Part shown: positions 10,836 to 52,339 of the stretch, piece after piece | Position numbering within the stretch: the first letter of the stretch is position 1 | Layout: each line of letters begins with the position of its first letter | Assembly (NCBI GenBank): GCA_026388155.1 | Contig: JAPLKI010000018.1 | Coordinates: 1-64,000, forward strand | Source: Elusimicrobiota bacterium | Lineage (GTDB): Bacteria > Elusimicrobiota > Elusimicrobia > Elusimicrobiales > UBA9959 | Length of the DNA stretch: 64,000 bases | Direction: 5' to 3' | Notes under the pieces: generated by a model | Databases searched by the model: none | The model's input: only the letters and a program-made list of their open reading frames with translations | What the model was told of the DNA's origin: nothing | Translations under genes and position numbers: made by a program

Positions 10836-10845
10836 AGTATAAAAT

Positions 10846-31728: not shown

Positions 31729-32556
31729 CTATGGGAACGGGCAATAGACCAGGCGGTCGACGCGTATTTTTTCAAGCTCTTTTTCTGAAGAATAAAACCT
31801 GCCGGGGAATTCGATAAAAACCGTGTTTCCCCGTATCAGAAGTTTTTCCTTTATCCAGGGGTGGGCTACTTCAAACGTGCAGGCGCGGCATTCGCGGAGG
31901 CAGTTTATGCCTTCTATCGACTGATGCGGCCTTATATCCTGCATCCCTACAAGGCAGGCGCGGGTGGTGGTCATGTTAAAGTAGGGGTAGTAAAACGTAA
32001 GGTTGAAATCCAGCTTTCCGAGACCATAGATCCTGCTGTTGAAATTTGAACTGAGGTCCCTTCCGGCTACGGAAACCTCGTAGCGTTTTATGCCAAGCGA
32101 GCTGAAGAGATCAAGGGCCTGGCGGCTGATCACCCCCACGTGTTTTTTTGACTGATCGACAACATTTTCGTAGAAGATCCTTCCGGCGGATATCTTAACG
32201 GCGATTTTACAGGCGCGGGCAAGTTCCAGGGCGGCAAAGTCATTGATACTCAGTTCCAGGCGTGAAAAATCCGCTTTTCCCGATTTTTCCAAAGCGCGAA
32301 GGACGGAAAAAATTTTTTTCAGCTTGAACACCCCTTTTTCGCTTAAAGGAGGTGTTAAAAGGCAGACCTTTTTGCCTTTTTTCTGGAAGCGGACTATGTC
32401 GCCGCAAAGGGTCTCTTCAAGCAGATTTTCGCAAAACTCGCCTCCAAGGTAAAACCAGCTGAAGCGGTCCAGCGCGTTTTCAAGGGCGCCGGTTTCTTCC
32501 AGGTCCGAAAAGCTCATAGTCCCGAGCCGTATGGCGTGTTCGAGCGGCATAATCAA
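31729..32556 (-). CDS. UbiV-like U32-family protein (partner subunit)
   Basis: 275 residues. It reads like the UbiV type of U32 proteins: an early WFYLGGEFCENLL (UbiV has YLGE..C), a KKVCLLTPPLSEKG strand, a ELSINDFAALEL piece and a SAGRIFYENVV barrel strand. Cysteines at the early motif and in INCLRECRACTFE could hold a 4Fe-4S cluster as in UbiV. Known UbiU-UbiV pairs carry out oxygen-independent hydroxylation; the substrate here is unknown and quinone synthesis genes are absent. It overlaps the next gene by four bases (ATGA type), as expected for subunits. A paralog is at 52340. Confidence 0.72.
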   Translation of the reverse strand: MIMPLEHAIRLGTMSFSDLEETGALENALDRFSWFYLGGEFCENLLEETLCGDIVRFQKKGKKVCLLTPPLSEKGVFKLKKIFSVLRALEKSGKADFSRLELSINDFAALELARACKIAVKISAGRIFYENVVDQSKKHVGVISRQALDLFSSLGIKRYEVSVAGRDLSSNFNSRIYGLGKLDFNLTFYYPYFNMTTTRACLVGMQDIRPHQSIEGINCLRECRACTFEVAHPWIKEKLLIRGNTVFIEFPGRFYSSEKELEKIRVDRLVYCPFP

Positions 32557-33503
32557 CTTCCCTTCCAGGCGGTCATTTTTTCTATAAATACATCCCTTGC
32601 CTTTTCGGTCCCGAGGTCGGCTGAAAGTTTTTCCGCCATATCGGCCATATCGCGCATCTGTCTGACCTTGCGGGTTTTAACGGCGGCGGGATCCTGGCGG
32701 GTGCCGTATTTCAGGTAGTTCACGCCCGCCGTTAAAAAATCGAAAAAAGCGGCGGCGTTGGCCATGCGCGGGGCACCGCCGCAAGCAAGTCTCGCGGACA
32801 GCCTTCTGGCTGCGGTTTTAGCGAGCGCCGCGTTCGTTTCGCCTTTTCCGGGATAGAGCGGTTTCAAGTGTTTGCCGACCGGGATATTGACGCGGCAAAG
32901 CGAGCCGTCCGGCACGTTGGCTTTCAGCGTGTGATATTCGGGCAGGTGCAGATGACAGCGGCCGTTTATGTAAGCGCAGCCGAAAAACCGGTAATCAAAA
33001 ATTTCGGTTTCAACCCCTTTTTTCCGGCAAAGCCGCAGCAGCGCTCCGGCTTCGCGCGGCGCCAGCTGGTTCGGCAGTATCAGCCGCGAAAATCCGAGAC
33101 GGATAAAAAAAGCGGCCGCCACGCTGTTAAAGCAGGGCTGTACGGAGCTTAAATGCAGCGCCGCCTTCGGCTTGAATTTGTAGTCCGCGAATATTTTAAG
33201 CGCGGAGATATTAGAAATTATGAACGCGTCCGCGCCGGCGGCTTCGGCCTCGGCGCAAAGGGCGGCCAGCCTTTGCGCCGAGGGGACGCTGCACTGCAGG
33301 CGCAGGGCGTTCACGGCCAGGCTGATCTTCAGCCCAAGGCTTCGTGCCCTGCTGGCGGCCCGTCTGAATTCAGCGAGGTTTTTGAGCGCCGAAGCTTCCC
33401 GGAAAGAGGGGAGAGGATTTACCGCGCAATAAAGCTCCGAGGCTCCCGCGGCGGCGAGCGGACCTATTTCTTCCAGGCTCGAAAAACAGGAAATGGTCTT
33501 CAT
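32553..33503 (-). CDS. UbiU-like U32-family protein
   Basis: 316 residues. U32 peptidase-family barrel: GPLAAAGASELYCAVNPL, SLAVNALRLQ, AEAAGADAFIISNISAL, LHLSSVQPCFNS, SRLILPNQLAPREAG. The family Cys region is present as FFGCAYINGRCHLH and DGSLCR. Despite the family name, studied members (UbiU, RlhA, TrhP) act in hydroxylation of quinones or RNA rather than proteolysis. The first Met is preceded by a word-repeat spacer with AAGGAG at about 33505. It heads a two-gene unit with the UbiV-like gene. Paralog of the gene at 51364. Confidence 0.75.
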   Translation of the reverse strand: MKTISCFSSLEEIGPLAAAGASELYCAVNPLPSFREASALKNLAEFRRAASRARSLGLKISLAVNALRLQCSVPSAQRLAALCAEAEAAGADAFIISNISALKIFADYKFKPKAALHLSSVQPCFNSVAAAFFIRLGFSRLILPNQLAPREAGALLRLCRKKGVETEIFDYRFFGCAYINGRCHLHLPEYHTLKANVPDGSLCRVNIPVGKHLKPLYPGKGETNAALAKTAARRLSARLACGGAPRMANAAAFFDFLTAGVNYLKYGTRQDPAAVKTRKVRQMRDMADMAEKLSADLGTEKARDVFIEKMTAWKGS

Positions 33504-33641: not shown

Positions 33642-34562
33642 TTAAAATTTTTCCGGCTTTATGGAGAAGGGGTCTTTTTTTGAAGCCTTAAGTTCTTTGC
33701 CGCCGTGGACTTTCAGGTAATCCGGCCTGGCTCCGCAGCACGCGGGTTCAAGTCTGCAGCGCGCGCAGGCGGGATGCGGCGCTTTGGGATCTATGCCGCC
33801 TTCAAGCACCCTGTCGCCGCGGCGCCAGCGCTGGAATTCAAACGAAAACCCCTCAAAATTTTCCAGCGCGCAAAGCGGCATATTCTGCACCACCGCCTTG
33901 CGGCCTTTAAGTTTGAGCCTTGCCAGCGCCAGTTTTATGAACGGCGAAACCCGCGAGTAACGCGGCACTATCCCGGGGGCTTTCAGCGCCCGGCCTTTAT
34001 TGCGCACAAAAGTGAAATTTACGAACGCGGCGCGCGGAAAATTTTTCATGGTCCAGAGCGCGAACTCGGGCAGCAGGCGGTAGTTTTCGCTTGAGATGAT
34101 ATGGAAAAACCGTATTTTTTCCTCGGCGCCCAGGGCCTTGATGTTCGCCAGGCCTTTAAGGGCCATCGGGAATTTTACGCTGCGCGTGACGGAGGCGTAA
34201 ACCTCCGCGTGGTGAGAGGGGAAGTTGACGGTAAAAAAATCGATATCAGCGGCCGCTTTCCGGCAGAAAGCGCTGTCGGAGAGCGCCACGGCGTTGGTGG
34301 AAAGCATGAAATTTTTCACGCCGGCGGCTTTCAGCGCCTTTATCCAGGTGAAAAAATCCGGGCTGGCCGTAGGCTCGCCCGCGCCTTCAAGGCTTACGGC
34401 TTTTACCCCCGCGGTTTTTATCAGGGCCGCCGTTTTTAAAGGGTTTTTTTTTGCGCCGTCGGGCGGATTATGGCAGTAAAGGCAGTAGAGATTACAGGTG
34501 TGGGCCATGCTGACGCAGGACTGCTCGCTTATCCAGCCGGTTTTTTGTTCACGGTTCGCCAT
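33642..34562 (-). CDS. Radical SAM protein with C-terminal Cys cluster region
   Basis: 306 residues. The 4Fe-4S motif is HTCNLYCLYC (C23, C27, C30), with LEGAGEPTASPD as the SAM-binding GGE-type strand and NFPSHHAEVY in the barrel. The C-terminus has PACARCRLEPACCGARPDY, a partial SPASM-like auxiliary cluster site. Substrate unknown. It sits between the U32 pair and the nitrogenase-like genes, but with word-repeat spacers at both ends. The final residues (KPEKF) directly border the spacer. Confidence 0.82.
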   Translation of the reverse strand: MANREQKTGWISEQSCVSMAHTCNLYCLYCHNPPDGAKKNPLKTAALIKTAGVKAVSLEGAGEPTASPDFFTWIKALKAAGVKNFMLSTNAVALSDSAFCRKAAADIDFFTVNFPSHHAEVYASVTRSVKFPMALKGLANIKALGAEEKIRFFHIISSENYRLLPEFALWTMKNFPRAAFVNFTFVRNKGRALKAPGIVPRYSRVSPFIKLALARLKLKGRKAVVQNMPLCALENFEGFSFEFQRWRRGDRVLEGGIDPKAPHPACARCRLEPACCGARPDYLKVHGGKELKASKKDPFSIKPEKF

Positions 34563-34720: not shown

Positions 34721-37246
34721 ATGGAAAGCATCGTATTCTTCGGCAAAGGCGGCATAGGCAAAAGCACCATCGCATCGAATATGTCGGTGATACTTGCATT
34801 CGGCGGACGGAAGGTGCTGCATGTCGGCTGTGACCCGAAGATGGATTGCTGCCTTTCTCTTATGCGCAGACACATACCGCCCTTTGCAGACAGGTCTGGC
34901 GGCGGCAATGAATCCGCTCTGCGCAAAAGCATTTACCCATCCGCCGTCAAAGGCGTTTACTGCATAGAAGCCGGCGGCCCCCAGCCCGGCGTGGGCTGCG
35001 CGGGAACCGGCATCGGTTCCATGCTCGACGCCATGAAAGACGGCGCCCTGATGGAAAAAGACGGCTACGACGCCGCGGTCTTTGACGTGCTGGGAGATGT
35101 GGTCTGCGGGGGGTTTGCCGCGCCGCTCAGGCGGGGCTTCGCGAAAAAAGCCGTTATTGTGACCTCGGAAGAGATCCTTTCCCTTTACGCGGCCAATAAA
35201 CTGATAATGATGATAAACAACTATGCGCGCAACGGCGTTTATCTGGCGGGCTTGGCGGTGAACGCCAAGAGCCCGGACGGCGTGCGCATGGCGGAGGATT
35301 TTGCCGGCATCGTTAACACCCGCGTGCTGGGCGTGATACTAAGGGACCCCGCCGTGGCCGCGGCTGAGCGCGAACATCGTCCCGCGGCGCTGGCCTTCCC
35401 TAAAAGTGATTTTGCCCTGCGCGCGGTGCGCCTTTGTTCAGCCCTAAGGACTGCCGGCGCGCCGGATACCCCGCCGCGTGCCATGCCGGACGCAGAGTTT
35501 TTTGTCTTCGCGGAAGGGCGACGGGAACAAAACAAGTTACAAGTCTCAAGTCACAAGTCTCAAGTCACAGGGCGCGGGTCACAGACCAAAGCGCACAGAT
35601 CAGCCGTTTCTCTTTTTGAGGCGGCCGGTTTTAAACCTTCCGGTATGGAAGGCGGCCAGATAATATGCGATTGGAAATCTTCAAAAGGCGTTTTCAAGAC
35701 CGTAATCGCTCCGGCTTCCGCCGCGCAGGAAGGCATGCCCCGCTTTTCCGACTGGGCCGTATGCTTTCATCCATCGGCAGGTAAAGACCCCGGAGCCTCT
35801 AACGCCGAACTGTTGGACGCGGCGGCGCAATTATCCTCCCTGCGTTTTGACGACATGCTTTCAACTTTTACGGGCATGAAAGATTTTTACGGTGCCCTGA
35901 TAGCCTTCGGCGGCCCGGAGGATAAGACTCTGGCCGCCCCCGACACGCCCAAACGCCCGCACATCGGTTTCGGGCAGTGGCAGCGTTTCATTTTCCCCGG
36001 CGGAGGGGTGAACGCCCGCATACCGCCCGGTTCCGTTATGGTGGAACACGGAGACAGCGAATGCCGTTTCAGCGGCTGCGCGGGCGGGGCGCTGGGCATA
36101 TTCAGCGAGAACGCCGGACTGAAATGTTCCGGCAGACAGTTCCGCGGGCCGTTGCTGCCGAAGAGCGACGCGTTCGTGGTCAACACAGAATTCCAGGCCC
36201 ATGACGCCGTTTTTGGCGACGAGGCTAAGATGCTTGAATCGCTTTACCGCGCGGCGGACCAGGCCGGTCCGGGGGGGCTGGTGGAATTTTACGTTGGCTG
36301 CTCCCCCATATTGTTATCCAGCGACGTCCGCGCTTTTGCGCGCAGGGTTGAGCGCGAGAAAAATGTGAAGGTGCAGCTTGAGAACTATAACAGTTTTGGT
36401 GAGCACGGCCCCGCCAAAGCCGCCGTGCGCGTGGAGTTTATGGCGTCCAGGCTGTCACGCGGGAAAGCCGGGAAGACGCGCGACGTCAATCTTATAGATT
36501 TCGGCGAATCAGCCGGCCGCATGTCCGCCCTGCTTGCCGGCCTGGAAATATCGGCGGGAGAACCGGGTCCGGATTTTTACGGAGCAGCGCGGGCTTCGCG
36601 CTTACAGGTGCTCTCAGAACCCGACACGGTGCTTGGACCCGCCTTCGACAAAGCCGGCATGAAGTGGATACTGCCGCCGGCGCCTTACGGTTTCGCCGGC
36701 ACCGACGCCTGGCTTGCCGCCGTAGCCGGCGCGCTGGGCTGGAAAAAAATAACGCCCGGCCCTTCAGCGGCCCAAAAGGCGGCCGCGCTGGAGCTTTGGC
36801 GCCGCGCCCGGGGTTACGCGGTTTGTTTCGTACTCGCGGCCGAAGAAACGGGCCTGCTGTCCGGAAGTCCCGCGCTCAGGATGGTGCCGGTGCTGCCGGT
36901 GTTGGCGGAAGCCGGGTTCGAGGTCCGCCTTTTTATAACGGGCGGCGGCTCTTATGGAAAGACCGGGGCGGATATTTCCGCGCTGAAGGCTTCTCTGCCG
37001 GGAAGGCGTTTATCCGCGGAATTCTTTAAAACGCCGCGGGAACTGGCCGCCCTGCTGCGCTCGGGCCCCGCGCTTCGCCTGGTCTATTCGGACATACGCA
37101 GCGACCCGCGCGTGGTTTCAGCCGGAAAAACCCCCTTTTCCGCGGCGCTTTTCGAGCCGGGCTATGACGGCGCGCTTGAAACCCGGCGCCGCCTGCTTGA
37201 ACTTTGCGAATGGAATTTTAATGAACGCTACCTCTCGTCAAAATAG
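34721..37246 (+). CDS. NifH-like / NifD-like fusion protein of a nitrogenase paralog
   Basis: 841 residues. Residues 1-265 are a NifH/BchL-type ATPase: P-loop GKGGIGKST (K14), GCDPKMD, and both bridging 4Fe-4S ligands, C93 in GPQPGVGCAGTG and C129 in DVLGDVVCGGFA. The Arg after the first ligand in NifH (CAGRG) is Thr here. Residues about 300-841 resemble nitrogenase component 1: ECRFSGC, and VEFYVGCSPILLSSDV matching the NifD Cys154 region. The linker (about 267-305, KLQVSSHKSQVTGRGS) is encoded by a spacer-type word repeat, so two genes may have fused. Dinitrogen fixation is unlikely since no nifE, nifN or nifB is seen; a role in reductive cofactor or metabolite synthesis is inference. Confidence 0.85.
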   Translation: MESIVFFGKGGIGKSTIASNMSVILAFGGRKVLHVGCDPKMDCCLSLMRRHIPPFADRSGGGNESALRKSIYPSAVKGVYCIEAGGPQPGVGCAGTGIGSMLDAMKDGALMEKDGYDAAVFDVLGDVVCGGFAAPLRRGFAKKAVIVTSEEILSLYAANKLIMMINNYARNGVYLAGLAVNAKSPDGVRMAEDFAGIVNTRVLGVILRDPAVAAAEREHRPAALAFPKSDFALRAVRLCSALRTAGAPDTPPRAMPDAEFFVFAEGRREQNKLQVSSHKSQVTGRGSQTKAHRSAVSLFEAAGFKPSGMEGGQIICDWKSSKGVFKTVIAPASAAQEGMPRFSDWAVCFHPSAGKDPGASNAELLDAAAQLSSLRFDDMLSTFTGMKDFYGALIAFGGPEDKTLAAPDTPKRPHIGFGQWQRFIFPGGGVNARIPPGSVMVEHGDSECRFSGCAGGALGIFSENAGLKCSGRQFRGPLLPKSDAFVVNTEFQAHDAVFGDEAKMLESLYRAADQAGPGGLVEFYVGCSPILLSSDVRAFARRVEREKNVKVQLENYNSFGEHGPAKAAVRVEFMASRLSRGKAGKTRDVNLIDFGESAGRMSALLAGLEISAGEPGPDFYGAARASRLQVLSEPDTVLGPAFDKAGMKWILPPAPYGFAGTDAWLAAVAGALGWKKITPGPSAAQKAAALELWRRARGYAVCFVLAAEETGLLSGSPALRMVPVLPVLAEAGFEVRLFITGGGSYGKTGADISALKASLPGRRLSAEFFKTPRELAALLRSGPALRLVYSDIRSDPRVVSAGKTPFSAALFEPGYDGALETRRRLLELCEWNFNERYLSSK
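35531..35582 (+). repeat. Word repeat inside the nifHD-like gene
   Basis: Tandem variants of ACAAGTCTCAAGTC encode the linker between the NifH-like and NifD-like parts. The same word forms the spacer at 31585-31726 and the 3' end of the gene at 47732. Only one arm is present, so no hairpin forms here. Confidence 0.7.
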
Positions 37247-38507
37247 GTTTAAAAAGGCCTTTAATATGCCCTACCAGCTGGGCATTTACCTGGCCGCCAA
37301 CGCGGTGTCGGACTGCTGCGTAGTGGTGGACGGGCTTAACTGTGTTATGCCGAAAATAGATTTTCTGGCCGGCAATCACGACCTGAATTCCACTTTGCTT
37401 TCGCCGGAGGGCAGGCACAGGGTCATTTGCACTATGACGGGGCCGCTGCCGCAGGGGAATAACCCGGAAAAAAAATTTTCAGCTCTGCTTGAAAGCGTGG
37501 CGGGCGCCGGCGACTTCGCCGTGATAATGGCGACCGGGCTGCCGTTTTTGAAACTGGCCGGCATGGATTATGAGGGTCTTGCCGCCGGAGTAAAAAGCGG
37601 CGTCCCGGTGGTGGACGTGCCGGCCAGATCTTTTGAGGCGGACTGGCTTGAAGGATACGCCTTGTCGCTTGACGCTTTAGCCCGCGCGCTGCCGGCGCGC
37701 AAGGTCAAAAAAAGAAAGCGGTCTGTGGCGCTCGTGGGGTATTTAATGGACCGCAATGAGCGCGACCACGCGGCCAATATCGAAGAACTTGGGCGCCTGC
37801 TTGAACTGTGCGGGCTGGAACTCTCCTGCGTTTTCCCTTCGGGCGGCAGTTTCGGGGACTTGTCCCGCGCGCTTGAGGCCGGGGTAATTGTTTCCCTGCC
37901 TTACGGGCGCAAGGCCGCCGCCCGGCTTGCCGCCAGGTCCGGCGCGGTACTTGTGGAAACAGGCCTGCCTCTGGGGCTTCAGGGTACCGCGCATTGGCTT
38001 GAAGCTGTGCGGCGCGCCGCGGGTATGAAGGGAGGGCTTCCCCCGGCCGTGAAAGTTCTGGAAAAACAGGCGGCCAAAGCCATAGCTCCGGCCCTGGGAG
38101 AGCTGGCCCACCGCAGCATAATTTACGCCGGAGATCCTTACCTTTTCGCGGCCTTCGCCGCATACGCCGCGGAACTTGGGATGCGCGTTAGCTGCGCCCT
38201 CATAGATTCTTTCATCAGGCCGCTTGACAGCGTCCGGCTTCCGGGAGAACTGCTGTTCTCTCCGGACACGGAAGAAGCGGCGGCGGTTGTAAAGGGCCTG
38301 GGCGGATATTTAAAACCGGACCTGGCGGTGGGAAATTCCTTCGCGGCTACGGAAGGCCTGTCCGCCGGCCTGCCTTTAACCGAACTGGGTTTTCCGTCGT
38401 ACGGGCATCATTGTCTCAGCGACGAGCCGTTTTTCGGCTTCGCGGGAGCGCGTACGCTGGCCGGCCGGCTGTTCAACTGTCTCCGATCGGAAAATCCCCG
38501 TGAGTAA
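37221..38507 (+). CDS. Nitrogenase component-1-like protein (NifK/NifE-like partner)
   Basis: 428 residues from MNATSRQ; a start at 37266 (MPYQLGIY) is also possible. The gene overlaps the end of the NifHD-like gene, so the two are coupled. AANAVSDCCVVVDGLNCVMPK and HRVICTMTGPLPQGNNPEKKF resemble the first P-cluster-side Cys region and the following loop of NifK/NifE. The position that carries the third Cys in NifD/NifK reads MATGLPFLKLAG with Thr instead. VALVGYLMDRNERDHAANIEELGRLL is the typical second-domain strand. It should form the catalytic component with the NifD-like half. Few conserved cysteines suggest one cluster shared with the partner. Confidence 0.78.
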   Translation: MNATSRQNRFKKAFNMPYQLGIYLAANAVSDCCVVVDGLNCVMPKIDFLAGNHDLNSTLLSPEGRHRVICTMTGPLPQGNNPEKKFSALLESVAGAGDFAVIMATGLPFLKLAGMDYEGLAAGVKSGVPVVDVPARSFEADWLEGYALSLDALARALPARKVKKRKRSVALVGYLMDRNERDHAANIEELGRLLELCGLELSCVFPSGGSFGDLSRALEAGVIVSLPYGRKAAARLAARSGAVLVETGLPLGLQGTAHWLEAVRRAAGMKGGLPPAVKVLEKQAAKAIAPALGELAHRSIIYAGDPYLFAAFAAYAAELGMRVSCALIDSFIRPLDSVRLPGELLFSPDTEEAAAVVKGLGGYLKPDLAVGNSFAATEGLSAGLPLTELGFPSYGHHCLSDEPFFGFAGARTLAGRLFNCLRSENPRE

Positions 38508-38534
38508 GGCTGAAGGCTGAAAGAGGGATTGAAG

Positions 38535-39353
38535 ATGCTTACAAAGTCTTGTTTTATTTTATCCTCTGCCCGATGCGCCAACCCCTCTACCCTGCTATCC
38601 TTGTGCCTATGTCTGTTTTGTCTGACCGCCGCGCGGGGTGAAGAGGTGAAATTTAAAACCAGCGATGGCTGCCTTATTGCCGCCTCTTACGGCGCTCCCG
38701 CCAAGGGGAAACTTGTTTTTGTCAATATTCACGGCCTTGGCTCAAATAAGGGCGAGTGGGGCGCCTTTGAAAAAATCCTTAAAGCGCGGAGCGCGGGCTG
38801 GCTTTCGCTTGACCTGAGGGGCCACGGGCAAAGCCTTGAGTGCGCGGGCATAAAAGCGGATTACAGGGCTTTCGGCCCCGGGGACTGGAATGCCGCCGCC
38901 AAAGATATAGCTGCCGCCGTTGACTGGCTGAAAAAAAGAAAAATCCCCGCTTCGAGAACGGCGCTTTGCGGCGCCAGCGTGGGGGCGAATCTGGCTTTAA
39001 AAGCGGCGGTTGATCATTCGCTTAAGCCGGCCGCGGTAATAATGCTTTCACCGGGACTTGTTTACGCCGGGGTTGGTATTGAGGAGTATTTTTTGCGGCC
39101 CCTGCCTTTTTCCCTGCTTTTGGCGGCCTCCCCCGACGATTATTATGCCTGGCAAAGCTCCATGCGCCTTTTTGAGGAGGCCCGGATTCAAAAGCTCCCC
39201 GCTTCTTCCAAACAACCGGCGGGGCATTCCGCGCCCGCCCATAGCGAAAAAGCCGTCTTCCGGCAGGGCGTGTCAGGCCATGGAGTCAATATGTTCTCCG
39301 GCGCCGGCGCGCCGTTAATGGAAGAAATAGCGCTTTGGGCGGCGGCCAGGTAA
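38535..39353 (+). CDS. Secreted alpha/beta hydrolase
   Basis: About 272 residues. An N-terminal signal region (STLLSLCLCLFCLTAARGEE) is followed by an alpha/beta hydrolase fold: FVNIHGLGSNKGEW as the oxyanion strand, LDLRGHGQS, the nucleophile elbow CGASVGANLAL (Ser) and a GHGVNM His near the C-terminus. It is probably an esterase or similar, acting in the periplasm. It lies about 27 bases after the NifK-like gene, across a short CTGAAGGCTGAA word repeat, and may be on the same transcript; no link to that system is evident. Confidence 0.78.
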   Translation: MLTKSCFILSSARCANPSTLLSLCLCLFCLTAARGEEVKFKTSDGCLIAASYGAPAKGKLVFVNIHGLGSNKGEWGAFEKILKARSAGWLSLDLRGHGQSLECAGIKADYRAFGPGDWNAAAKDIAAAVDWLKKRKIPASRTALCGASVGANLALKAAVDHSLKPAAVIMLSPGLVYAGVGIEEYFLRPLPFSLLLAASPDDYYAWQSSMRLFEEARIQKLPASSKQPAGHSAPAHSEKAVFRQGVSGHGVNMFSGAGAPLMEEIALWAAAR

Positions 39354-39523
39354 ATCTTTGGGGGGTATTGTGCCGTCAGTCAGATAAAATCGCTGCACTT
39401 CGTAAATGCCCCTTGAAAAGCCCGCGTTTATATATTAAGCTATAAAGTATCAAGACCCGCATGGAAAAAACCATCCGGGTACTTTGTTTGTCCGGCTTTT
39501 ACCCGGTAACACCAGGGGGGCTT

Positions 39524-40297
39524 ATGGAAAATGAAAAAGTTGTGGTTTTACAACTTAAACTGACCCAAAAGCGCTGCCTTTTTGTCCTGACGCTCGCTTT
39601 CCTGTGTTTTCACCCGCGGTCGCTTGGCTCGGAAACACTGACGCTTACCACTTACTATCCGGCCCCCTACGGCGGCTATGTCGGCCTGCTTACCACCAAT
39701 CAGACCCTGCTTGCCCGCGACGCCGGCAGTGTGGGCATCGGTCTGGGCTCGGGGGGGGTTCCGGTGCAGAAATTTCAGGTCAATAGCTCGGGAGTGAATT
39801 CATTCGTTGTCACTGCGGGGGGCAGTGTGGGGGTCGGGACTGCCGGTCCCGCCTATAAATTGACGGTAACAAATGGCGGAATAGGCGGCACCTACGCGCT
39901 GACCCCTAATTATATGAGTTGGGCCGCCTACGGCACCGGTGACGGAGGGGCGGCGATCTATAACGACGCTTCCGGCTTCAGGAAACTCATGATCGTGGGC
40001 AATAATTCCGCAGGCGGAAACAGGGAGGTCGGGATCTGGGACAACCTGACTGTCAGCAACAACCTCGCTATTGGCGGTATAATCACCGGCGTGTGTCAGC
40101 AGGTTGGTTACGGCGTGGGCGGCACAACCTGGTGTCCCAACGGCAATCAAAGGGTTTTTGGCTGGTATGCCGGCGGCGTTGGGGTATGCGGCATGCTTTT
40201 TACGGGTGGAGTTCTTCAAGACCCCGGCAGATGGACGCAGGGGGTGTGCGTTACCGGCGACCGTACCGGCACAATGAATTGCTGCAGGATACAATAA
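39524..40297 (+). CDS. Secreted protein with TYYPAPYG motif (tail-fibre-like repeats)
   Basis: 257 residues from the ATG at 39524, chosen because GGGGGG lies about six bases upstream; a start 21 codons earlier is possible. A hydrophobic export segment (FVLTLAFLCFHPRSLGS) is followed by LTLTTYYPAPYGGYVGL, a motif I associate with Elusimicrobiota secreted proteins. Then come Gly/Val/Asn-rich stretches (AGSVGIGLGSGG, GGSVGVGTAGPAYKLTVTN) like the collar or spike repeats of phage fibres and trimeric adhesins. The C-terminus has six cysteines. The stop overlaps the next start (TAATG), which ties it to the His-Xaa-Ser cluster. Confidence 0.7.
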   Translation: MENEKVVVLQLKLTQKRCLFVLTLAFLCFHPRSLGSETLTLTTYYPAPYGGYVGLLTTNQTLLARDAGSVGIGLGSGGVPVQKFQVNSSGVNSFVVTAGGSVGVGTAGPAYKLTVTNGGIGGTYALTPNYMSWAAYGTGDGGAAIYNDASGFRKLMIVGNNSAGGNREVGIWDNLTVSNNLAIGGIITGVCQQVGYGVGGTTWCPNGNQRVFGWYAGGVGVCGMLFTGGVLQDPGRWTQGVCVTGDRTGTMNCCRIQ

Positions 40298-40773
40298 TGG
40301 AAAAAGGCGTAAAAATACTTGTTGACACCAAAAAACATAGTGTTGAATCCGTCAGGTACGCCGGCTATTCGCTTAGCGGTGAGGCCTATGTTCTTTTAAA
40401 ACCGTCGGGAAGGGCGGAAACGACGGTGGAACTGGCGCCGAAAAACGGGGCGCGCGCGGATTCAGGTGGTTTAAAAAAAAGATTTTTAAGCGGACTTGAG
40501 GAGGAAAATAACAGGGAGGCTGTTTTCAAGTTCAACCTGGAGCTTCGCGAGTTCATGCTGCTTAAAGCGCTCTCTTACGAGGAAAAGGCTCCGGAGCCCA
40601 AGGATTCGGGGCTTAGCCCCGATCAGGAAAAAGAGCTGGACGCGCTTATTGCGCAGGTGGAGAACGAGCTGAAAGAGGAGTCCAAAAAGGCCTCCAGCCG
40701 CGATCCTCTCGGCATAACCAGGATCTGGGAAGAAAAAAATGATTCAAAGCGCTCTAAAAGCAAAAGCAAATAA
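40297..40773 (+). CDS. HxsD-like protein with charged C-terminal extension
   Basis: 158 residues. VKILVDTKKHSVESVRYAGYSLSGEAYVLLKP and the later VFKFNLELREFMLLKAL follow the HxsD pattern (beta-strand, SxExV...AY..S, then an N-x-x-LRE helix). A Lys/Glu-rich tail of about 60 residues follows. HxsD proteins accompany His-Xaa-Ser peptide maturation and may bind the peptide or the radical SAM enzyme. It overlaps hxsB by 35 bases. A more typical HxsD lies on the other side of hxsB, so this is a second, extended copy. Confidence 0.65.
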   Translation: MEKGVKILVDTKKHSVESVRYAGYSLSGEAYVLLKPSGRAETTVELAPKNGARADSGGLKKRFLSGLEEENNREAVFKFNLELREFMLLKALSYEEKAPEPKDSGLSPDQEKELDALIAQVENELKEESKKASSRDPLGITRIWEEKNDSKRSKSKSK

Positions 40774-42202
40774 GAAAATTTCCGAAACCAAGCCGCCGCA
40801 TTTCTACTGGGCAAGGCTTGGCGGGCGGGTTTTGCTTACCAATGACGCCGGCTGCAGCGTTTGGCTTAATGAGAAAGATTTCCGGAGCCTGCTTGGCGGC
40901 GGATTAAAGGAGGGAAATCCCTCTTTCGCCGAACTTTCTGAAAATGGTTTCATAAGAACGCAGCTTAATTTTGATGACCTCTCGCTCAAGTGCAAGAGAA
41001 AAGAGGCGCATTTGCAGGCGGGGCCGGGGCTGCACATTTTTGTAACTACGCTGCGCTGCAATCACAAGTGTCTTTATTGCCAGTCAGGCGCCATTAACCA
41101 GGCTTCAAAAGGCACCGACATGAGCTGGCCCACCGCTAAGAAAAGCGTGGATTTCGCCTTTGAAAGCCCGAGCCGCGGCATAACCATTGAATTTCAGGGG
41201 GGCGAGCCCCTGCTGAACTGGAAGACGGTTGAAAAAACAGTGCGTTACGCGCGGAAAAAGGAAAAAGACGAGGGCCGCGAGCTGGGGCTGGCTTTGGTGT
41301 CCAATTTCAGCCTGATGACCGAAGAAAAAGCCGCTTTCCTCATTGCCAATGAAGTTTCCGTCTGCGCTTCTCTTGACGGCCCCGAAGAGCTGCATAACAG
41401 AAACAGGCTTTATGCGGAAGGCAGCTCTTACAAACCTACGGTAAAGTGGCTTAAGTATTTTAGCGCCAAAAGCGAGAAACAGAAAGGGGAAAACAGGGTT
41501 TTCAGGCCGAGCGCGCTTCTTACCGTGACCAAGTATTCGCTGGGCAGGCACAAAGAAATAATCGACGAATACGTGAAGCTCGGCATGGATTATATTTTTG
41601 TCAGGTCGCTCGCGCCCATAGGATACGCCAAGAACCTTTGGGGCACTATAGGCTACAGCGCCGAGGAATTCGTAAAATTTTACAGGGACAGCCTTGCGTA
41701 TATAATCGAGCTCAACCTCAAAGGTACCGCGATAAAAGAAAAAATGGCGGTTATGATGCTCAAAAAAATAGTGAGGCAGGACGACCCGATGTTCGTCGAT
41801 CTGCGCTGCCCGTGCGGAGCGGGGATAGGCCAGTTGGCTTACGACTACAACGGGGATATCTATACCTGTGACGAGGGCCGGATGCTCGCCTGGGAAGGGG
41901 ATGAGCTGTTCAAGGCGGGCAATGTATTTAAAAGCAAGTACGCGGAGGTGATACTCAGCCCCGCGGTTAAAGCCTGCGCCGCCGCCTCGAACCTGGAGAT
42001 CCAGCCAGTTTGCTTCAGGTGCGTTTATAAGCCGTTCTGCGGAGTGTGCCCCGTGTATAACTACGAGGCTCAGGGGTCCCTTTGGGGGAGCATGCCCTCG
42101 AACGAGCGCTGCGCGGCGCTTAAGGGCATTTTTGAAACCGTTTTCCTCTCCCTGCGCGACAAAAAAAGCGGCGCTGTTCTGCGCTCATGGGTGGAAAAAT
42201 GA
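40739..42202 (+). CDS. hxsB: His-Xaa-Ser system radical SAM/SPASM maturase HxsB
   Basis: 487 residues. After an N-terminal domain of about 95 residues (FYWARLGGRVLLTNDAG), the radical SAM motif TLRCNHKCLYCQ gives C107, C111 and C114; IEFQGGEPLLNW and CASLDGPEELHNRN follow. The C-terminal SPASM-type region has CPCGAGIGQLAYDYNGDIYT, CDEGRMLAWEGD, and CFRCVYKPFCGVCPVY, giving ligands for auxiliary 4Fe-4S clusters. These match what I recall of HxsB. It likely modifies the Ser-His-Gly repeats of the peptide encoded at 43686, perhaps by cross-linking; the chemistry is not known to me. Confidence 0.88.
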   Translation: MIQSALKAKANKKISETKPPHFYWARLGGRVLLTNDAGCSVWLNEKDFRSLLGGGLKEGNPSFAELSENGFIRTQLNFDDLSLKCKRKEAHLQAGPGLHIFVTTLRCNHKCLYCQSGAINQASKGTDMSWPTAKKSVDFAFESPSRGITIEFQGGEPLLNWKTVEKTVRYARKKEKDEGRELGLALVSNFSLMTEEKAAFLIANEVSVCASLDGPEELHNRNRLYAEGSSYKPTVKWLKYFSAKSEKQKGENRVFRPSALLTVTKYSLGRHKEIIDEYVKLGMDYIFVRSLAPIGYAKNLWGTIGYSAEEFVKFYRDSLAYIIELNLKGTAIKEKMAVMMLKKIVRQDDPMFVDLRCPCGAGIGQLAYDYNGDIYTCDEGRMLAWEGDELFKAGNVFKSKYAEVILSPAVKACAAASNLEIQPVCFRCVYKPFCGVCPVYNYEAQGSLWGSMPSNERCAALKGIFETVFLSLRDKKSGAVLRSWVEK

Positions 42203-43685: not shown

Positions 43686-44027
43686 ATGACCAATAAAAAA
43701 TCACGCATAAAGAAAAATATAGGCCTTTTCCTGAACAGCGAAGAGGGGAAAATGCTGGACGCGGATATCGTGAAAACCGGAATTGCTTTGGGAATTCTTG
43801 GGGCCGCCATGGTGGATCAGGCGGCCGCGCAGACCACTTTCCACAGCAATTATTTCACCGCCTCAAGCCATGTAAGCCACCAGAGCCACGGCTCGCACGG
43901 CTCGCACGGCTCGCACGGCTCGCACGCGTCGCACGGCTCGCACGGCTCGCACGGCTCGCACGGCTCGCACGGCTCGCACGGCTCGCACGGCTCGCACGGC
44001 TCGCACGGCTCGCACGGCTCGTACTAG
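43686..44027 (+). CDS. hxsA: His-Xaa-Ser repeat peptide (HxsA-like RiPP precursor)
   Basis: 113 residues. The first about 45 residues act as a leader ([20 protein letters not shown], then [18 protein letters not shown]). From about 61 to the end there are 17 Ser-His-X units: SHV, SHQ, four SHG, SHA, ten SHG, then SY. The DNA is a 9-base tandem array of TCGCACGGC, with the last ten units identical. HxsA-type peptides are the presumed substrates of HxsB. Many His residues would bind metals; modification may link His or Ser side chains. GGGGG lies nine bases before the ATG. Confidence 0.85.
43878..44018 (+). repeat. 9-base tandem repeat in hxsA
   Basis: Fifteen or so units of the type TCGCACGGC, the last ten (43929-44018) identical. 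The length is likely to vary between strains by slippage. It encodes Ser-His-Gly. Confidence 0.9.
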
Positions 44028-47731: not shown

Positions 47732-49072
47732 TCACTTGTGACCTGTGACCTGCAACTTGTGACTATCTTTAAGGTACGGGTCCTTTCCTGAATAATTCCC
47801 GCTCTCCGCCCGGGCCATGAAACGGCTGCCGCCCAGGCATCTTAATCGGAAAATGCAGCTGCGGCAGCTGCGAAGCCGGGCCGGGCCGCTTATGTTTTTC
47901 AAAAGGCGGCTGTTCCATGCTTTAAAGGGTTCCGCGCCCAGTTTTTTTTGAATGTAATAGCTCGGCTTGTAAAAACCCCGCGGGTCAAGCACCAGGCGGG
48001 TGTGACCGTCGTCAAAACTGGCTCCCAGAAAAAGCGGGGCCTGCCTTTTTTTAAAAAGGCAGAACGGGACCGGGTTCGCGAAAAGTGTCCGCGGCTTGAG
48101 CCCCAGGCGCGGCTCAAGGCGGCGGACCAGGCGGCGCAGGTCTTTTAGCGTTATCCGGAATTCTTTCGGGAGGCTGGTGTTTGACCCCATGGGCCTGTAA
48201 AGCTCCCATATTTCTGCCTTCAAGCCTTCAGCTAAAGCGCGGTATTTTTCAAAATTAGTTATCAGCTCTTTTGAAATAACAGTTCCAAGCCGCAAAACCC
48301 CTATGCCGGAGCGGCGAAGCAGGCGGATATTTTTTATTTTTTTTGAGAACAGGCCGCGCGTCCCGGTGGCGGCGGCCTCGCTTTCGGCGTCGCAGCCCTG
48401 CATGGACACCAGTATATTGTCTATAAATGGGGCGGCCTTCTTTATCAGTTTGGCGTCCAGCAGGGTGGCGTTCGTGTTCACCAGCACATAGAAACCCAGT
48501 TTTTTGGCCGCGGCCAGCGCCTCTAAAATTTTGGGATGAAGGAAAGGCTCTCCGCCGGTGAAACGGATGTTTTTCACTCCCAGCGCGCGCGCGGCCGCCA
48601 GATGAGAGCGTATTTCAGGCAGCGAAAGCTTGGCGGTAAGGGAACCGGAGGAGCAGACGGCGCAGGCAAGATTGCAGCGACGGTTCACTTCAATAACTAT
48701 TTCCAGCGGGATTTCAAGGACGGGTTTAAGGCCGATACCCGCCGGGCCCAGGAAAATAGAACCCGGCTCAAGGCCCGGGCAAAGCCGGCTAAGGCGGCAG
48801 CGGGAGCAAATATCCAGCCTTGCCGCTTTGCGCCGGGACGATTTCGGCCGCAAAATATGGTCGTAGGCATCCGGCAGGAAGCAGAAGGGGACGCCTTTTA
48901 CAAAAACGCTGAAACGGTTTTCATAGGTATTAAGAGCCCCGTAAAGGAAAGCGCGCGCGGTTTCAAGTTCCGTCCGCCCGGGGCGCACGGAGATGCATAG
49001 CGTTCTTTCTTTCCGGTTAATAAGCGCGCTTACCCCCGCCATAGGTTTTATAAGTTTTATTTCAGAGCCCAT
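47732..49072 (-). CDS. Radical SAM protein with N-terminal Cys-rich domain
   Basis: 446 residues. An N-terminal domain of about 120 residues ends with a DICSRCRLSRLCPG cluster (C89, C92, C98) and comes before the radical SAM motif VNRRCNLACAVC (C133, C137, C140). RFTGGEPFLHPK and LVSMQGCDAE follow, then a SPASM-like CRSCIFRLRC. The last residues (HKLQVTGHK) are translated spacer repeat. The order, with extra Cys sites on both sides, suggests at least two clusters. Start overlaps the stop of the gene at 49057 by 16 bases, so the two are coupled. Confidence 0.8.
   Translation of the reverse strand: MGSEIKLIKPMAGVSALINRKERTLCISVRPGRTELETARAFLYGALNTYENRFSVFVKGVPFCFLPDAYDHILRPKSSRRKAARLDICSRCRLSRLCPGLEPGSIFLGPAGIGLKPVLEIPLEIVIEVNRRCNLACAVCSSGSLTAKLSLPEIRSHLAAARALGVKNIRFTGGEPFLHPKILEALAAAKKLGFYVLVNTNATLLDAKLIKKAAPFIDNILVSMQGCDAESEAAATGTRGLFSKKIKNIRLLRRSGIGVLRLGTVISKELITNFEKYRALAEGLKAEIWELYRPMGSNTSLPKEFRITLKDLRRLVRRLEPRLGLKPRTLFANPVPFCLFKKRQAPLFLGASFDDGHTRLVLDPRGFYKPSYYIQKKLGAEPFKAWNSRLLKNISGPARLRSCRSCIFRLRCLGGSRFMARAESGNYSGKDPYLKDSHKLQVTGHK
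47735..47768. repeat. Word repeat at a gene end
   Basis: CACTTGTGACCTGTGACCTG and CAACTTGTGACTATC: the CACAAGTCACAAG word family in reverse. It encodes the C-terminal tail of the radical SAM protein. Confidence 0.6.
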
Positions 49073-50214
49073 AAATATTTTCCGCCCTTGAATTCGCGCG
49101 AGACAAGGCCTTTTTTAATTAATATCTGACCGGTGGACAGGACGCTTGCGCCGTCCCTGCAGTCGTGGCAGAGCGGCAGGCCTTTGGCTATTTCAAGCGC
49201 GCGCGTTGTGGACACGCGGCTTTCTTTTTTCAGTATTTCCATAAAACATTTTTCCATGTTGTTCAGGTAAACGCGTCCGGGGGCGGAGGCCGCAGTCCCC
49301 CTTGGGAGGGGCGGATCCCCGGCGGGATAAACGCTGCCGGCCGGAAAAAAATCAAAATAGCGCCTGTCAACTCCGAAGCAGCGCCGCCGCAGCCGGCAGG
49401 CCCGGCACTCTTTCAGGCGGACTTTTTCCCGCTTTACATTTTCGTCCAGGTCCCACGACTCTCCGGCGGGCGTTGAAACCACGGTGTTAAATTTGTAGCG
49501 GCCGGCGGCCCGGTCCTTATAGGGGCCAAGCAGACAGGGGGGGATATTCAAAACTTTTATTTCCTTAATAAGGCCGAGGGCCTTGAAACGGTCCAGGGCT
49601 TTTATGGCCTCGGGCGCCGCAATGCCCAGGGAAACCCCGAGTTCGGCGGCGTTTTCGGCCATATTCCCTGTATAAATAGGGTAGATCAGCACAAAGCTTG
49701 AAACTCCCTGGTCTAGAAAAAAATCGAGAGTGGCAACAAGGTCGCGGCAGTTAAGGCGGTTGATGAGTATGTTTACCCCAAGGCCCGCTTTAAGGGTCCG
49801 CATGTTTTTTAAGCCCGCAAGACTGCGCGCGAAAGAGCCTTTTTTTCCGGTAAGGCGGTTATGCACCGCCGCTTTGCTGCTTAAGAACGTGAACTTGCAG
49901 AGGGTGAGCCCCGCGTCCACCAGTTTTTTCGCCAGAGCCATGTCGGAGAGCCTTACGGCGTCGGTTTGAAGCCTTATGAATTTAAATCCCAGATGTCTGG
50001 CCGCGCCTATCAGTTTCGGCAGCTCGGGCCTGAGCAGCGCCTCGCCGCCTGAAAACCCCAGGCGCCTGTAACCCAGTTGTTTGGCCTTGTAAATTTCGGC
50101 TATCGCGGTTTTAAGCGGCTTGAAAAGCGCGGGGTTGAAATCCCCCTGTGAACAAAAGCGGCAGCGCAGGTCGCAGTTATAGTTGGTTACTATCTCGTAG
50201 CAGTCTTTGGGCAT
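49057..50214 (-). CDS. Radical SAM/SPASM protein with C-terminal winged-helix-like part
   Basis: 385 residues. TNYNCDLRCRFC (C14, C18, C21) at the start, GFSGGEALLRPE, then the TIM-barrel half. A SPASM-like ECRACRLRRRCFG is near residue 270. After a Pro/Ala linker (about 285-310) the last 75 residues (CFMEILKKESRVSTTRALEI, VLSTGQILIKKGLVSREFKG) look like a winged helix, as in the recognition elements of peptide- or nucleic-acid-binding radical SAM enzymes. Substrate unknown. Confidence 0.82.
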   Translation of the reverse strand: MPKDCYEIVTNYNCDLRCRFCSQGDFNPALFKPLKTAIAEIYKAKQLGYRRLGFSGGEALLRPELPKLIGAARHLGFKFIRLQTDAVRLSDMALAKKLVDAGLTLCKFTFLSSKAAVHNRLTGKKGSFARSLAGLKNMRTLKAGLGVNILINRLNCRDLVATLDFFLDQGVSSFVLIYPIYTGNMAENAAELGVSLGIAAPEAIKALDRFKALGLIKEIKVLNIPPCLLGPYKDRAAGRYKFNTVVSTPAGESWDLDENVKREKVRLKECRACRLRRRCFGVDRRYFDFFPAGSVYPAGDPPLPRGTAASAPGRVYLNNMEKCFMEILKKESRVSTTRALEIAKGLPLCHDCRDGASVLSTGQILIKKGLVSREFKGGKYLWALK

Positions 50215-50216
50215 AT

Positions 50217-50290
50217 GAATTAAGAGCGGTTAGCGAATAGCGTATAGAGGTTAGGGGTGGAGTTTCTTACTCTATTCGTTATTTTCTATT
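50217..50290. repeat. Word-repeat hairpin spacer
   Basis: Left AGAGCGGTTAGCGAATAGCG, apex GGAGTTTCTTAC, right CTATTTACTATTCGCCGC, running slightly into the end of the next gene. It mixes the TTAGGGG and GCGAATAG word families. Confidence 0.6.
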
Positions 50291-51208
50291 TACTATTCGC
50301 CGCTTTTTAAAATCGGTGACGGGGACGAATTCTTTCCAACCGTAAATTCCGGGATATTCCCGCCAGGGGCCCTCGCAAATTTCAAAATACTTGCATTCGG
50401 GGCAGCGCGGGCCCTTCGCTTTGCCCTCCGTTCTGCGGTACTCTCCGTAGTTTTCTATGAATTTATCCGCGTCGGCCACCGGGCCGTCCGGTATCATGCG
50501 TTCGGCTACGCAGGCTTCGTAGCCCTTCATCAGGCAGAATGGTATGGCTTCCGTGAAACAGGGAACCCCGTTTTTTATGCCGACATCAAGGCCCTTTTTG
50601 ACCCAGGGCATTATGTCGGTTTTTTGGGGCACTATCCATTTTTTGTTTTCCAGGGCGGTGCCTACTATGTGGATGAACGCGAACTGGTACTGGCTGGCGC
50701 CCAGGGAAACCAGAATTGAAGCCAGCTCCGGCAGCTCGCGGTAATTAAGGGAAGTTATTACGCTGTTGGTTATCACATTGAAACCCATCTGAGCCGCGTT
50801 TTTTATGCCCGTGATGGTCTGAATGAAACTGCCGGGCGAATGGGTAAGGGCGTCGTGCGTAGCGGGTTTTGCCCCGTGCAGGGAGGGGCCAATTTCATTG
50901 GCCCCGGCTTTTTTAAGGTTTTCCAAAAGGCTTTTGTAAGTGAAAGCCCGGCCGTTGGTCTGCAATTGTATGGTTTTGTATCCTAGCTTTTTGGCCTTTG
51001 CCACGAAGTCTATTATATTTGAATGCAGCGTGGGTTCCCCGCCGGTAAAAACAACGCCGCGGACGCCTTTCTTATAAGCGGCGGCCAGTTCCGCGTAAAC
51101 GCGGGCCTTCGTGCGGTCCGCGTACATATCGCGTTTGTGTCCCTGGGCGCAAAAATCGCATTTATTGTTGCACCTGAAAGTGATCTTTATGTCTATTCGT
51201 GTGTACAT
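50279..51208 (-). CDS. Radical SAM protein
   Basis: 309 residues. KITFRCNNKCDFCAQG (C13, C17, C20), VVFTGGEPTLHSN, and the SLHGAKPATHDALT barrel strand are all typical. The C-terminus has PRCPECKYFEICEGPWREY, a short SPASM-like site. It resembles the other CSQG/CAQG-type radical SAM protein next to it (gene at 49057), so the two may be old duplicates acting in sequence. First gene of the minus-strand group 51208 to 46985. Confidence 0.84.
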   Translation of the reverse strand: MYTRIDIKITFRCNNKCDFCAQGHKRDMYADRTKARVYAELAAAYKKGVRGVVFTGGEPTLHSNIIDFVAKAKKLGYKTIQLQTNGRAFTYKSLLENLKKAGANEIGPSLHGAKPATHDALTHSPGSFIQTITGIKNAAQMGFNVITNSVITSLNYRELPELASILVSLGASQYQFAFIHIVGTALENKKWIVPQKTDIMPWVKKGLDVGIKNGVPCFTEAIPFCLMKGYEACVAERMIPDGPVADADKFIENYGEYRRTEGKAKGPRCPECKYFEICEGPWREYPGIYGWKEFVPVTDFKKRRIVNRK

Positions 51209-51363: not shown

Positions 51364-52182
51364 ATGATCATAGTGGCCGGGGCGAAAAATTTCAAAGAGG
51401 CCGAATGGCTTTTTTCCAACGGGGCTGACGAGATCTATTGCGGCCTCGTGGACATCCCGAACCACAGGCGGGATTCCCTGTCCATACGGGACGAAAGGGA
51501 ATTCTTCAAGATCATAAACCTGGCTAAAAAGAAGGGGAAAAGGTCCCTGCTGCTGATAAACGAGGCCGGCGCCCCGGATAAATACCCGAAGCTGGCGGAA
51601 AAGGCGAAAAAGATCGTCGAGCGCGGCGTCGGGGGGCTGGTGGTAAAAGACGTGTCGCTGATAGAGTACCTTCAGAATTACGGGGTAAAGAGCTATTACA
51701 TACTCAGCAGCCTGGCCCTGGCCTTCAACTCAAGGACGCTTGAATTTTTCAAGAAATACAACGTAAAAAGGGTCATCTTACCCTATCACCTGCCCCCCGC
51801 CGAGGCCGGGAAGATAATAAAGAACAAGTGCGGCATAGAGACCGAAATGTTCTATTACCCCAGCCACTTCTGCCAGAACGTGGACCCGCTGTGCAAATTC
51901 TGCGACTGGAGCCGGGATTATAAGCCGTGCAAGATACGCCTTGACAGCGAAGGCGGCTATTTTACCATGCCTTCCCCGGACGCTTCCGGGCTTGCGGATA
52001 TAATGTATGACGGCCACCGGGCCGGAGTTCAATACCTGAAGATACCGCGCACGCTGGATTTCAACGGGCTGAAGAGCTTCCTGGGTGATGCCAGGCGCCT
52101 GCTTTGCCTGCTGGACGGCGGCGTTTCGCGCAAAGAGTTCAGGAATTTTTTTAAAAACGTTTACAGCAGCAGCAGGGTTTGA
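51364..52182 (+). CDS. UbiU-like U32-family protein, second copy
   Basis: 272 residues. WLFSNGADEIYCGLVDIPN, a RGVGGLVVKDVSLIEYLQNYG strand and KRVILPYHLPPAEAGKI are U32-barrel pieces. The Fe-S region is FCQNVDPLCKFCDWSRDYKPC, with four cysteines. It is shorter than the copy at 32553 and diverged, but paired in the same way with a UbiV-like partner downstream. Expected role: subunit of an oxygen-independent hydroxylase or related enzyme; the substrate is not known. Confidence 0.76.
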   Translation: MIIVAGAKNFKEAEWLFSNGADEIYCGLVDIPNHRRDSLSIRDEREFFKIINLAKKKGKRSLLLINEAGAPDKYPKLAEKAKKIVERGVGGLVVKDVSLIEYLQNYGVKSYYILSSLALAFNSRTLEFFKKYNVKRVILPYHLPPAEAGKIIKNKCGIETEMFYYPSHFCQNVDPLCKFCDWSRDYKPCKIRLDSEGGYFTMPSPDASGLADIMYDGHRAGVQYLKIPRTLDFNGLKSFLGDARRLLCLLDGGVSRKEFRNFFKNVYSSSRV

Positions 52183-52200
52183 CCGTCTGAAGGGCATAGC

Positions 52201-52239
52201 CCCGCCCTTTTGGGCTGAACATTAATCCAAAAGAGCGGG
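52201..52239. repeat. CCTTTTGG / CCAAAAGA hairpin, copy 2
   Basis: 13-base arms with a single C-A mismatch at the same place as in 378-456. Preceded by CATAGCCCCG and followed by CATAGCCCCTG, a direct repeat. Confidence 0.5.
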
Positions 52240-52252
52240 ACATAGCCCCTGA

Positions 52253-52310
52253 CCCCGCCACCCGCTTGCAAATCTGAGATTTGCCTTCGGCAAATAAACA
52301 GGTGGTGGGG
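52253..52310. repeat. CCCCACCACC hairpin family, copy 1
   Basis: CCCCGCCACC pairs with GGTGGTGGGG (one G-T wobble). In reverse complement, 56595-56654 has the same flanks (CCTGACCCC before, CAGGTGGTGGGG at the end) and a different loop. Confidence 0.55.
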
Positions 52311-52339
52311 CGATACGGCACAGCCATAGGCTGAAAATA

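Follow-up and report, generated by a model that had tools for sequence, protein, structure and literature searches.

The best-known relatives of nitrogenase with simple metal clusters, DPOR, COR and Cfb, all reduce tetrapyrroles. Nitrogenase paralogs of Elusimicrobiota form a clade named group VI, and two papers citing Meheust 2020 describe them as putative genes for the biosynthesis of a tetrapyrrole cofactor (PMC9391474, PMC11257099). Tetrapyrrole reduction is accordingly the standing proposal for the group. The window analyzed here, 64,000 nucleotides of an Elusimicrobiota bacterium (GenBank assembly GCA_026388155.1, contig JAPLKI010000018.1, positions 1 to 64,000), is part of contig C18 of a 3.36 Mb genome that is 96.9% complete. 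Positions 34721–38507 include two genes, one for a fused NifH-NifD-like protein (HD) and one for a NifK-like partner (K), together called HDK. HDK is a genuine member of this known but unexplained group, and its fused form is conserved. On balance we lean towards an ATP-driven two-component reductase working like DPOR, with one [4Fe-4S] relay between D and K and no large cofactor, whose substrate would not be a tetrapyrrole made by the cell but most likely a product of the adjoining island of radical S-adenosylmethionine (SAM) and Hxs genes. The present analysis adds to the description of the group a ligand set, the missing tetrapyrrole pathway, the Hxs link and the fusion, although the last has possibly been noted earlier.

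The 841-residue HD protein is encoded by one open reading frame (34721–37246, forward strand) and consists of a NifH domain (residues 1–262), an extra stretch of about 145 residues and a NifD domain (residues 407–841). Pfam matched Fer4_NifH to residues 3–219 (E 5.7e-56) and Oxidored_nitro to residues 472–747 (E 3.6e-13). The latter family was also matched by the 428-residue K protein (37221–38507; E 1.2e-37), and the start of its gene overlaps the end of the HD gene by 26 bp. When 340 genomes of the phylum were searched, over 20 genomes from the family of the host had the fused protein at full length with 43–70% identity, several of them in two copies, and because of this conservation the fusion is not an assembly error. 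Other Elusimicrobiota families had shorter fused or unfused relatives, and the best matches outside the phylum were from Myxococcota. The whole-genome search of the host found no further NifD or NifK, no further convincing NifH and no NifB, leaving HDK as the only nitrogenase-type genes. An earlier note on this DNA, made from the sequence alone, had described an H–D fusion, perhaps a variant form, without genes for FeMo-co synthesis. All this was borne out: the fusion is fixed in the lineage, and both NifB and a second NifDK-type pair (NifEN) are missing genome-wide.

Structures were predicted separately for the D construct (residues 266–841) and K. The AlphaFold model of the former had a mean pLDDT of 73 with a confident core, and that of K a mean of 87. 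Residues 407–841 of D matched NifD-type chains, MarD (9d9u_B) being the first (VIA Z 19.1, rmsd 4.7, 335 aligned residues), and the model of K was closest to BchB of DPOR (VIA Z 37.9, rmsd 3.0, 398 aligned residues), the top ten rows all being BchB. Helices and strands were predicted also for the linker (residues 263–406), which is mostly missing from the shorter fused proteins of the other families. The PDB matches to the D construct were confined to its NifD part, with none over the linker.

Alignments of 28 fused proteins and 27 K partners were used for comparing the ligands of the metal clusters. The P-loop and the cysteines Cys93 and Cys129 were conserved in all 28 fused proteins, and the Arg of the NifH motif GCAGR is replaced by Thr96, with Thr or Ala across the close clade. 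Component 1 had only three invariant cysteines, Cys448 and Cys527 of D and Cys41 of K. The same two D cysteines were present in all 20 of the 20 unfused D proteins, with no other fully conserved Cys. Profile–profile alignment (hhalign, against Mar/Nif-type D and K sets) placed Cys448 at alpha88, Cys527 at alpha154, K Cys41 at beta70, the first MarK ligand, and K Cys70 at the second MarK ligand. A single-sequence phmmer alignment had set Cys448 at alpha62, and this placement was dropped as the family profile and the wider alignment gave alpha88. The equivalents of alpha62, beta153 and the cofactor cysteine MarD Cys270 (Mar residue numbering as in PMC12552129) were not Cys in either hhalign or the alignments. 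The earlier note had been right about the intact P-loop and [4Fe-4S] ligands of NifH, about the replaced regulatory Arg and about a Cys lacking from the K partner, which is the one of beta153 type. The D domain is likewise short of the alpha62-type and cofactor cysteines.

These ligands bear directly on two alternatives. The overall HDK architecture is that of a true nitrogenase, but NifB and NifEN are missing, the position of the FeMo-co ligand Cys275 is not Cys, and the six-cysteine P-cluster set is incomplete without alpha62 and beta153. This alternative is already contradicted, and we give it practically no weight. A C–S bond reductase resembling methylthio-alkane reductase (Mar) or isethionate reductase (Isr) is suggested by Mar (9fmg, 9d9u) being the best sequence or structure match of the H and D domains, and by the radical-SAM partners found also in Mar and Isr (PMC12552129, PMC11423573). 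Mar, however, needs six P-cluster cysteines, Cys270 for its [Fe8S9C] cluster and the NifB-like MarB, whereas HDK lacks the alpha62, beta153 and cofactor cysteines and the genome lacks NifB, and the NifH tree separates HDK from Mar, making this function highly unlikely.

No large cofactor is expected for HDK because NifB and the cofactor Cys are both missing. The three strictly conserved cysteines, together with the neighboring acidic and His residues, argue for one small DPOR-like cluster instead of a P-cluster. Compared with the relay of DPOR, which has three Cys and one Asp, the three invariant cysteines are here split 2+1 between D and K. Being lineage-wide, this set (two Cys from D, one from K) predicts a relay ligation unlike those of the nitrogenase P-cluster, DPOR and Isr.

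The position of the H domain was studied with two trees, one computed quickly from 126 H domains and the other more carefully from 45 rows. Both trees grouped it with paralogs from Elusimicrobiota and Myxococcota, apart from NifH/AnfH, Mar, Nfa (Endomicrobium type), CfbC and BchL/DPOR. CfbC was represented by locus L161, which exceeds the curated CfbC cut-off, and the sequence 6nzj, which we take to be NifH of Methanosarcina acetivorans, grouped with NifH. The clade that holds the principal members from Elusimicrobiota and Myxococcota had an SH-aLRT support of 97 in the 126-row tree and of 97/93 in the 45-row tree (21-row core). When the long Myxococcota rows L114 and L162, both unstable, were included, the support of the whole group was 70/3 in the 45-row tree, and the outer limit of the group VI-like clade appears not settled owing to these wandering rows. 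By the composition of its clade, rather than by comparison with named published sequences, HDK appears to match group VI. The Elusimicrobia nitrogenase paralogs near many radical-SAM genes to which the earlier note referred are this same group (PMC9391474, PMC11257099).

According to the published reading of group VI, the enzyme would reduce a tetrapyrrole into a new cofactor, using a scavenged or imported tetrapyrrole where none is made. Its best-known simple-cluster relatives and the description of the group favor this, as do the B12-binding radical-SAM genes within the island and the HemB of carriers in families f12, f14 and f15. In the host genome, however, neither HemC (PF01379) nor HemB (PF00490) was found. 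Within the family of the window, HemB was missing from 17 of the 23 genomes carrying the paralog. Of the 14 carriers with a completeness of at least 90%, 13 lacked it, among them three that are 100% complete, and HemC followed the same pattern except for a short fragment in one carrier (G135). Furthermore, the presence of HemB was unrelated to that of the paralog (6/23 carriers, 9/36 non-carriers), and the common radical-SAM neighbors matched best HxsC and not heme-type radical-SAM enzymes. Because HemB and HemC are missing from the host and from most near-complete carriers of the family, it appears very unlikely that the enzyme of this lineage acts on a tetrapyrrole made by the cell. It may use a scavenged one, or the function may differ between lineages, and the published reading as a whole we consider unlikely. 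As most carriers in the lineage cannot make tetrapyrroles, the question of the function is narrowed and points elsewhere.

The DPOR-like reductase that we favor would work as follows. Two H domains from two fused HD chains would pair in the ATP-bound state around one [4Fe-4S] cluster held by Cys93 and Cys129. The pair would then dock on D–K, hydrolyze ATP and pass single low-potential electrons, one per cycle. A [4Fe-4S] relay at the D–K interface would receive them, probably ligated by Cys448 and Cys527 of D, Cys41 of K and, as no other conserved Cys is available, a fourth residue of another kind. The relay would pass them directly to an organic substrate in the D–K cavity, no [Fe8S9C] or FeMo-type cofactor intervening. 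With one H attached to each D, an (HD–K)2 complex would form only one H2 at a time, and its halves would either take turns or be served by neighboring complexes. The fusion would thereby limit each catalytic tetramer to one Fe-protein pair and offer a natural test of alternating halves. The earlier note's proposal of a hard reduction in an undescribed biosynthesis agrees with an Fe-protein machinery that is intact and with the loss of the cofactor ligands, while the reaction itself we infer from the sequence.

For the substrate, a product of the radical-SAM/Hxs island would be the leading guess. HDK lies at the edge of an 80-kb radical-SAM island (C18:34–114 kb), which includes 26 of the 52 radical-SAM matches of the genome, with 1.2 expected. 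When radical-SAM neighbors were sampled across the relatives, 37 of 39 matched HxsC, the best among the families listed (best E 8.7e-49), with scores below the equivalog cut-off where scored. An Hxs system adjoins HDK: HxsA4 and HxsB both exceed their curated cut-offs, and the HxsD-like proteins are below theirs. Among 48 carriers, HxsB was at most 25 kb from the paralog in at least 15, when about 5% would be expected under a null model of random placement with average genome values. A more specific proposal, that HDK is a tailoring reductase of a ribosomal peptide, reducing a group on, or released from, HxsA or another repeat peptide after the action of HxsB/HxsC-type radical-SAM enzymes, is tentative and rather doubtful. 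To our knowledge, no nitrogenase-like enzyme has earlier been found to act on a peptide.

Instead of reducing a substrate, HDK might use ATP to activate another metalloenzyme by reduction, such as a corrinoid protein or a radical-SAM or U32 enzyme of the island. Fe-S and B12-type enzymes are abundant in the island, and passages of PMC12176620 discuss nitrogenase-related features for the ATP-driven MCR activation complex. No single partner gene, however, was found beside HDK in all the genomes, and the D–K pair, by analogy with DPOR, suggests a small-molecule or peptide substrate. The activator role seems to us decidedly unlikely.

Several observations weigh against the DPOR-like reductase acting on an island product. 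Position alone links HDK to the island. HxsC-like enzymes are present in each of the 59 genomes of the family, with medians of 11 in carriers and 10 in non-carriers (p-value 0.11), or 10.5 and 10 in genomes at least 90% complete (p-value 0.66), and many genomes that have full Hxs and radical-SAM sets lack HDK. Four HDK pairs adjoin genes that, read from the sequences by eye, are those of IF3-L35-L20-PheST, with no radical-SAM genes there, and the HemB of the carriers in the three other families also belongs here. Regarding the cluster, Cys70 of K (beta95 type) is present in the window protein and in many of its close relatives, though not in all, and in the subset keeping it a larger cluster is conceivable. 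For the fourth ligand of the relay there are only candidates, possibly conserved Asp, Glu or His residues beside Cys448, or Asp37, His53 or Asp54 of K. In the structural comparisons AnfK of Fe-nitrogenase (VIA Z 36.0) was within two Z units of BchB, Foldseek ranked AnfK first for K, and the D domain was nearest to MarD.

The features of HDK and of the genes around it are collected in Table 1.

Table 1. Positions of HDK, its domains and ligands, and the surrounding genes in the window.
Feature	Position	Strand	Basis
Fused NifH-NifD-like protein, 841 residues	34721–37246	+	Pfam; full length kept in numerous genomes of its family
NifH-like Fe-protein domain, residues 1–262	34721–35506	+	Fer4_NifH E 5.7e-56; trees
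P-loop GKGGIGKST, residues 8–16	34742–34768	+	Almost all columns invariant in 28 relatives
Cys93, first [4Fe-4S] ligand of H domain	34997–34999	+	Invariant
Cys129, second [4Fe-4S] ligand of H domain	35105–35107	+	Invariant
Linker with extra alpha+beta region, residues 263–406	35507–35938	+	Alignment; predicted secondary structure
NifD-like domain, residues 407–841	35939–37243	+	AlphaFold model, VIA Z 19.1 to MarD 9d9u_B; hhalign NifD/MarD E 1e-31
Cys448 in HxxxEC motif (NifD alpha88, MarD Cys91)	36062–36064	+	Invariant; hhalign
Cys527 (NifD alpha154, MarD Cys158)	36299–36301	+	Invariant in group VI, at least 90% in wider set; hhalign
NifK-like partner, 428 residues	37221–38507	+	Pfam E 1.2e-37; AlphaFold pLDDT 87; VIA Z 37.9 to DPOR BchB
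K Cys41, first MarK P-cluster Cys (beta70 type)	37341–37343	+	Invariant; hhalign
K Cys70, beta95-type Cys	37428–37430	+	hhalign; not kept in all relatives
Partner of U32-like protein, no family match	31729–32556	-	Clusters with 52340–53029
U32/UbiU-like protein	32553–33503	-	PF01136 E 7.6e-12; UbiU-like 45 bits, cut-off 440
HxsC-like radical-SAM protein	33642–34562	-	TIGR03977 E 2.3e-14
Alpha/beta hydrolase, downstream edge of HDK stretch	38529–39353	+	Also in genomes of the same genus without HDK
HxsD-like protein, weak	40231–40773	+	TIGR03976 25.6 bits, cut-off 50
HxsB radical-SAM maturase	40739–42202	+	TIGR03978 482.7 bits, cut-off 370
His-Xaa-Ser repeat peptide HxsA4	43686–44027	+	NF038313 90.9 bits, cut-off 55
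Three more island radical-SAM genes	47732–51208	-	Family matches
Second U32/UbiU-like gene and partner	51364–53029	+	UbiU-like 59.5 bits, below cut-off

As for the genes flanking HDK, the earlier note had named radical-SAM enzymes and a UbiU/UbiV-like pair. The radical-SAM gene next to HDK stood, but the pair only in part, as one of its genes is U32/UbiU-like far below the UbiU cut-off and the other matches no family. That the U32 pair would be part of the HDK system was weakened, since the pair and its radical-SAM gene persist without HDK in a genome of the same genus (G123). The co-occurrence with radical-SAM genes, a trait of group VI, was found here yet was not specific to carriers, and a radical-SAM suite specific to the paralog was dropped as an explanation, the relatives without the paralog having equally many HxsC-like genes.

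In G123 the flanking radical-SAM gene and the hydrolase are kept, and between them there is, instead of HDK, a pair of genes resembling, in a reading of the sequences by eye, barnase and barstar (L185:10068–10634 and 10631–11050). Another genome of the same genus (G122) lacks the U32 pair, the radical-SAM gene and HDK altogether. The GC content of HDK is 60.5%, that of the neighboring genes 53–56%. The simplest reading would be a mobile two-gene module that was recently gained horizontally, or lost and replaced. The loci L050, L072 and L073 have genes similar to this barnase/barstar-like pair close to their Hxs modules.

The radical-SAM island extends 50 kb past the window (C18:63–114 kb; L182–L184), with many B12-type radical-SAM genes and a transposase-like gene (C18:100748–102136). 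Directly upstream of HxsC-like radical-SAM genes, L184:4574–5218 (C18:107574–108221) encodes a secreted-looking protein with Cys-pair repeats (AGYGACVAKGLTPAYCKN) and no family match, a possible candidate for a peptide precursor. A prepilin-peptidase-like membrane protein is encoded at L184:6590–7729 (C18:109590–110729), and its cluster 9 (L050, L060, L064, L066, L067, L068, L073) recurs between HxsC-like radical-SAM genes near nitrogenase paralogs. Short exported-looking proteins sharing the motif TLTTYYPAPYGGY are located beside Hxs genes at 39461–40297 of the window, L072:14070–14633 and L073:17534–18046.

The arrangement of the paralog genes varied. In L050, L051 and L052 the order is reversed, K preceding HD, and in family f15 (L058, L060, L062, L064) there are D-K-H-H-D-K arrays, some also with fused HD-K, so that up to three nitrogenase-like systems are adjacent. 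In gut and rumen Clostridia (L117, L120) K is near the group VI K (168–194 bits), and H and D are unfused with H in another clade. An HDK-like set was found beside, but outside, the Mar clade in the complete genome of a cultured isolate, Anaeromyxobacter oryzae Red232 (L144). Other H–D fusions, most of them in separate clades, were detected from Clostridia, Thermoplasmata and Myxococcota (L110, L119, L125, L142, L157, L114, L132). Those of Clostridia and Thermoplasmata, in other NifH clades (L110:7980–10169, L119:1915–4128, L125:3324–5504, L142:7968–10100, L157:7959–10103), mean that the H–D fusion is not unique to Elusimicrobiota. In Myxococcota bacterium RA.bin121, also of another clade, one open reading frame (L132:2465–5881) has two complete NifH domains followed by NifD. 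This H-H-D chain is possibly a built-in Fe-protein pair, another solution to the constraint of one H per D.

HDK shares with the group VI paralogs of Elusimicrobia cited in PMC9391474 and PMC11257099 the phylum, the radical-SAM-rich surroundings and a separate NifH clade with Myxococcota, and differs, perhaps, in the fusion of H to D in one gene, and in that most carriers of the family cannot make tetrapyrroles, contrary to the function proposed for the group. Like CfbCD, it would be ATP-driven with no need of NifB, but Cfb lacks a K subunit, which is present here, and CfbC is elsewhere in the tree, in the group of L161; the score of HDK for the CfbC equivalog was 193 bits against 402. With IsrBHDK (PMC11423573) it has in common incomplete P-cluster ligands, no cofactor ligands and radical-SAM genes nearby, although Isr has one Cys in D and three in K, whereas here two are strictly conserved in D and one in K. 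MarHDK (9fmg, 9d9u; PMC12552129) provides the best PDB sequence match of H and D, and the motif PYGFAGTDAWL of D is common to both, but HDK belongs to a separate clade and lacks MarB and the alpha62, beta153 and Cys270 ligands of Mar. Compared with DPOR (BchL-BchNB), in which BchN has three Cys and BchB gives Asp36, D has two Cys and K gives a Cys, H is fused to D, BchL is outside the HDK clade, and the scores are below those of the NCBIfam equivalogs (BchL 147 against 345, BchN 51–59 against 324–420, BchB 43–50 against 490–509 bits). What HDK shares with DPOR is the BchB-like fold of K, the intact Fe protein, the few cysteines of component 1 and the expectation of no large cofactor.

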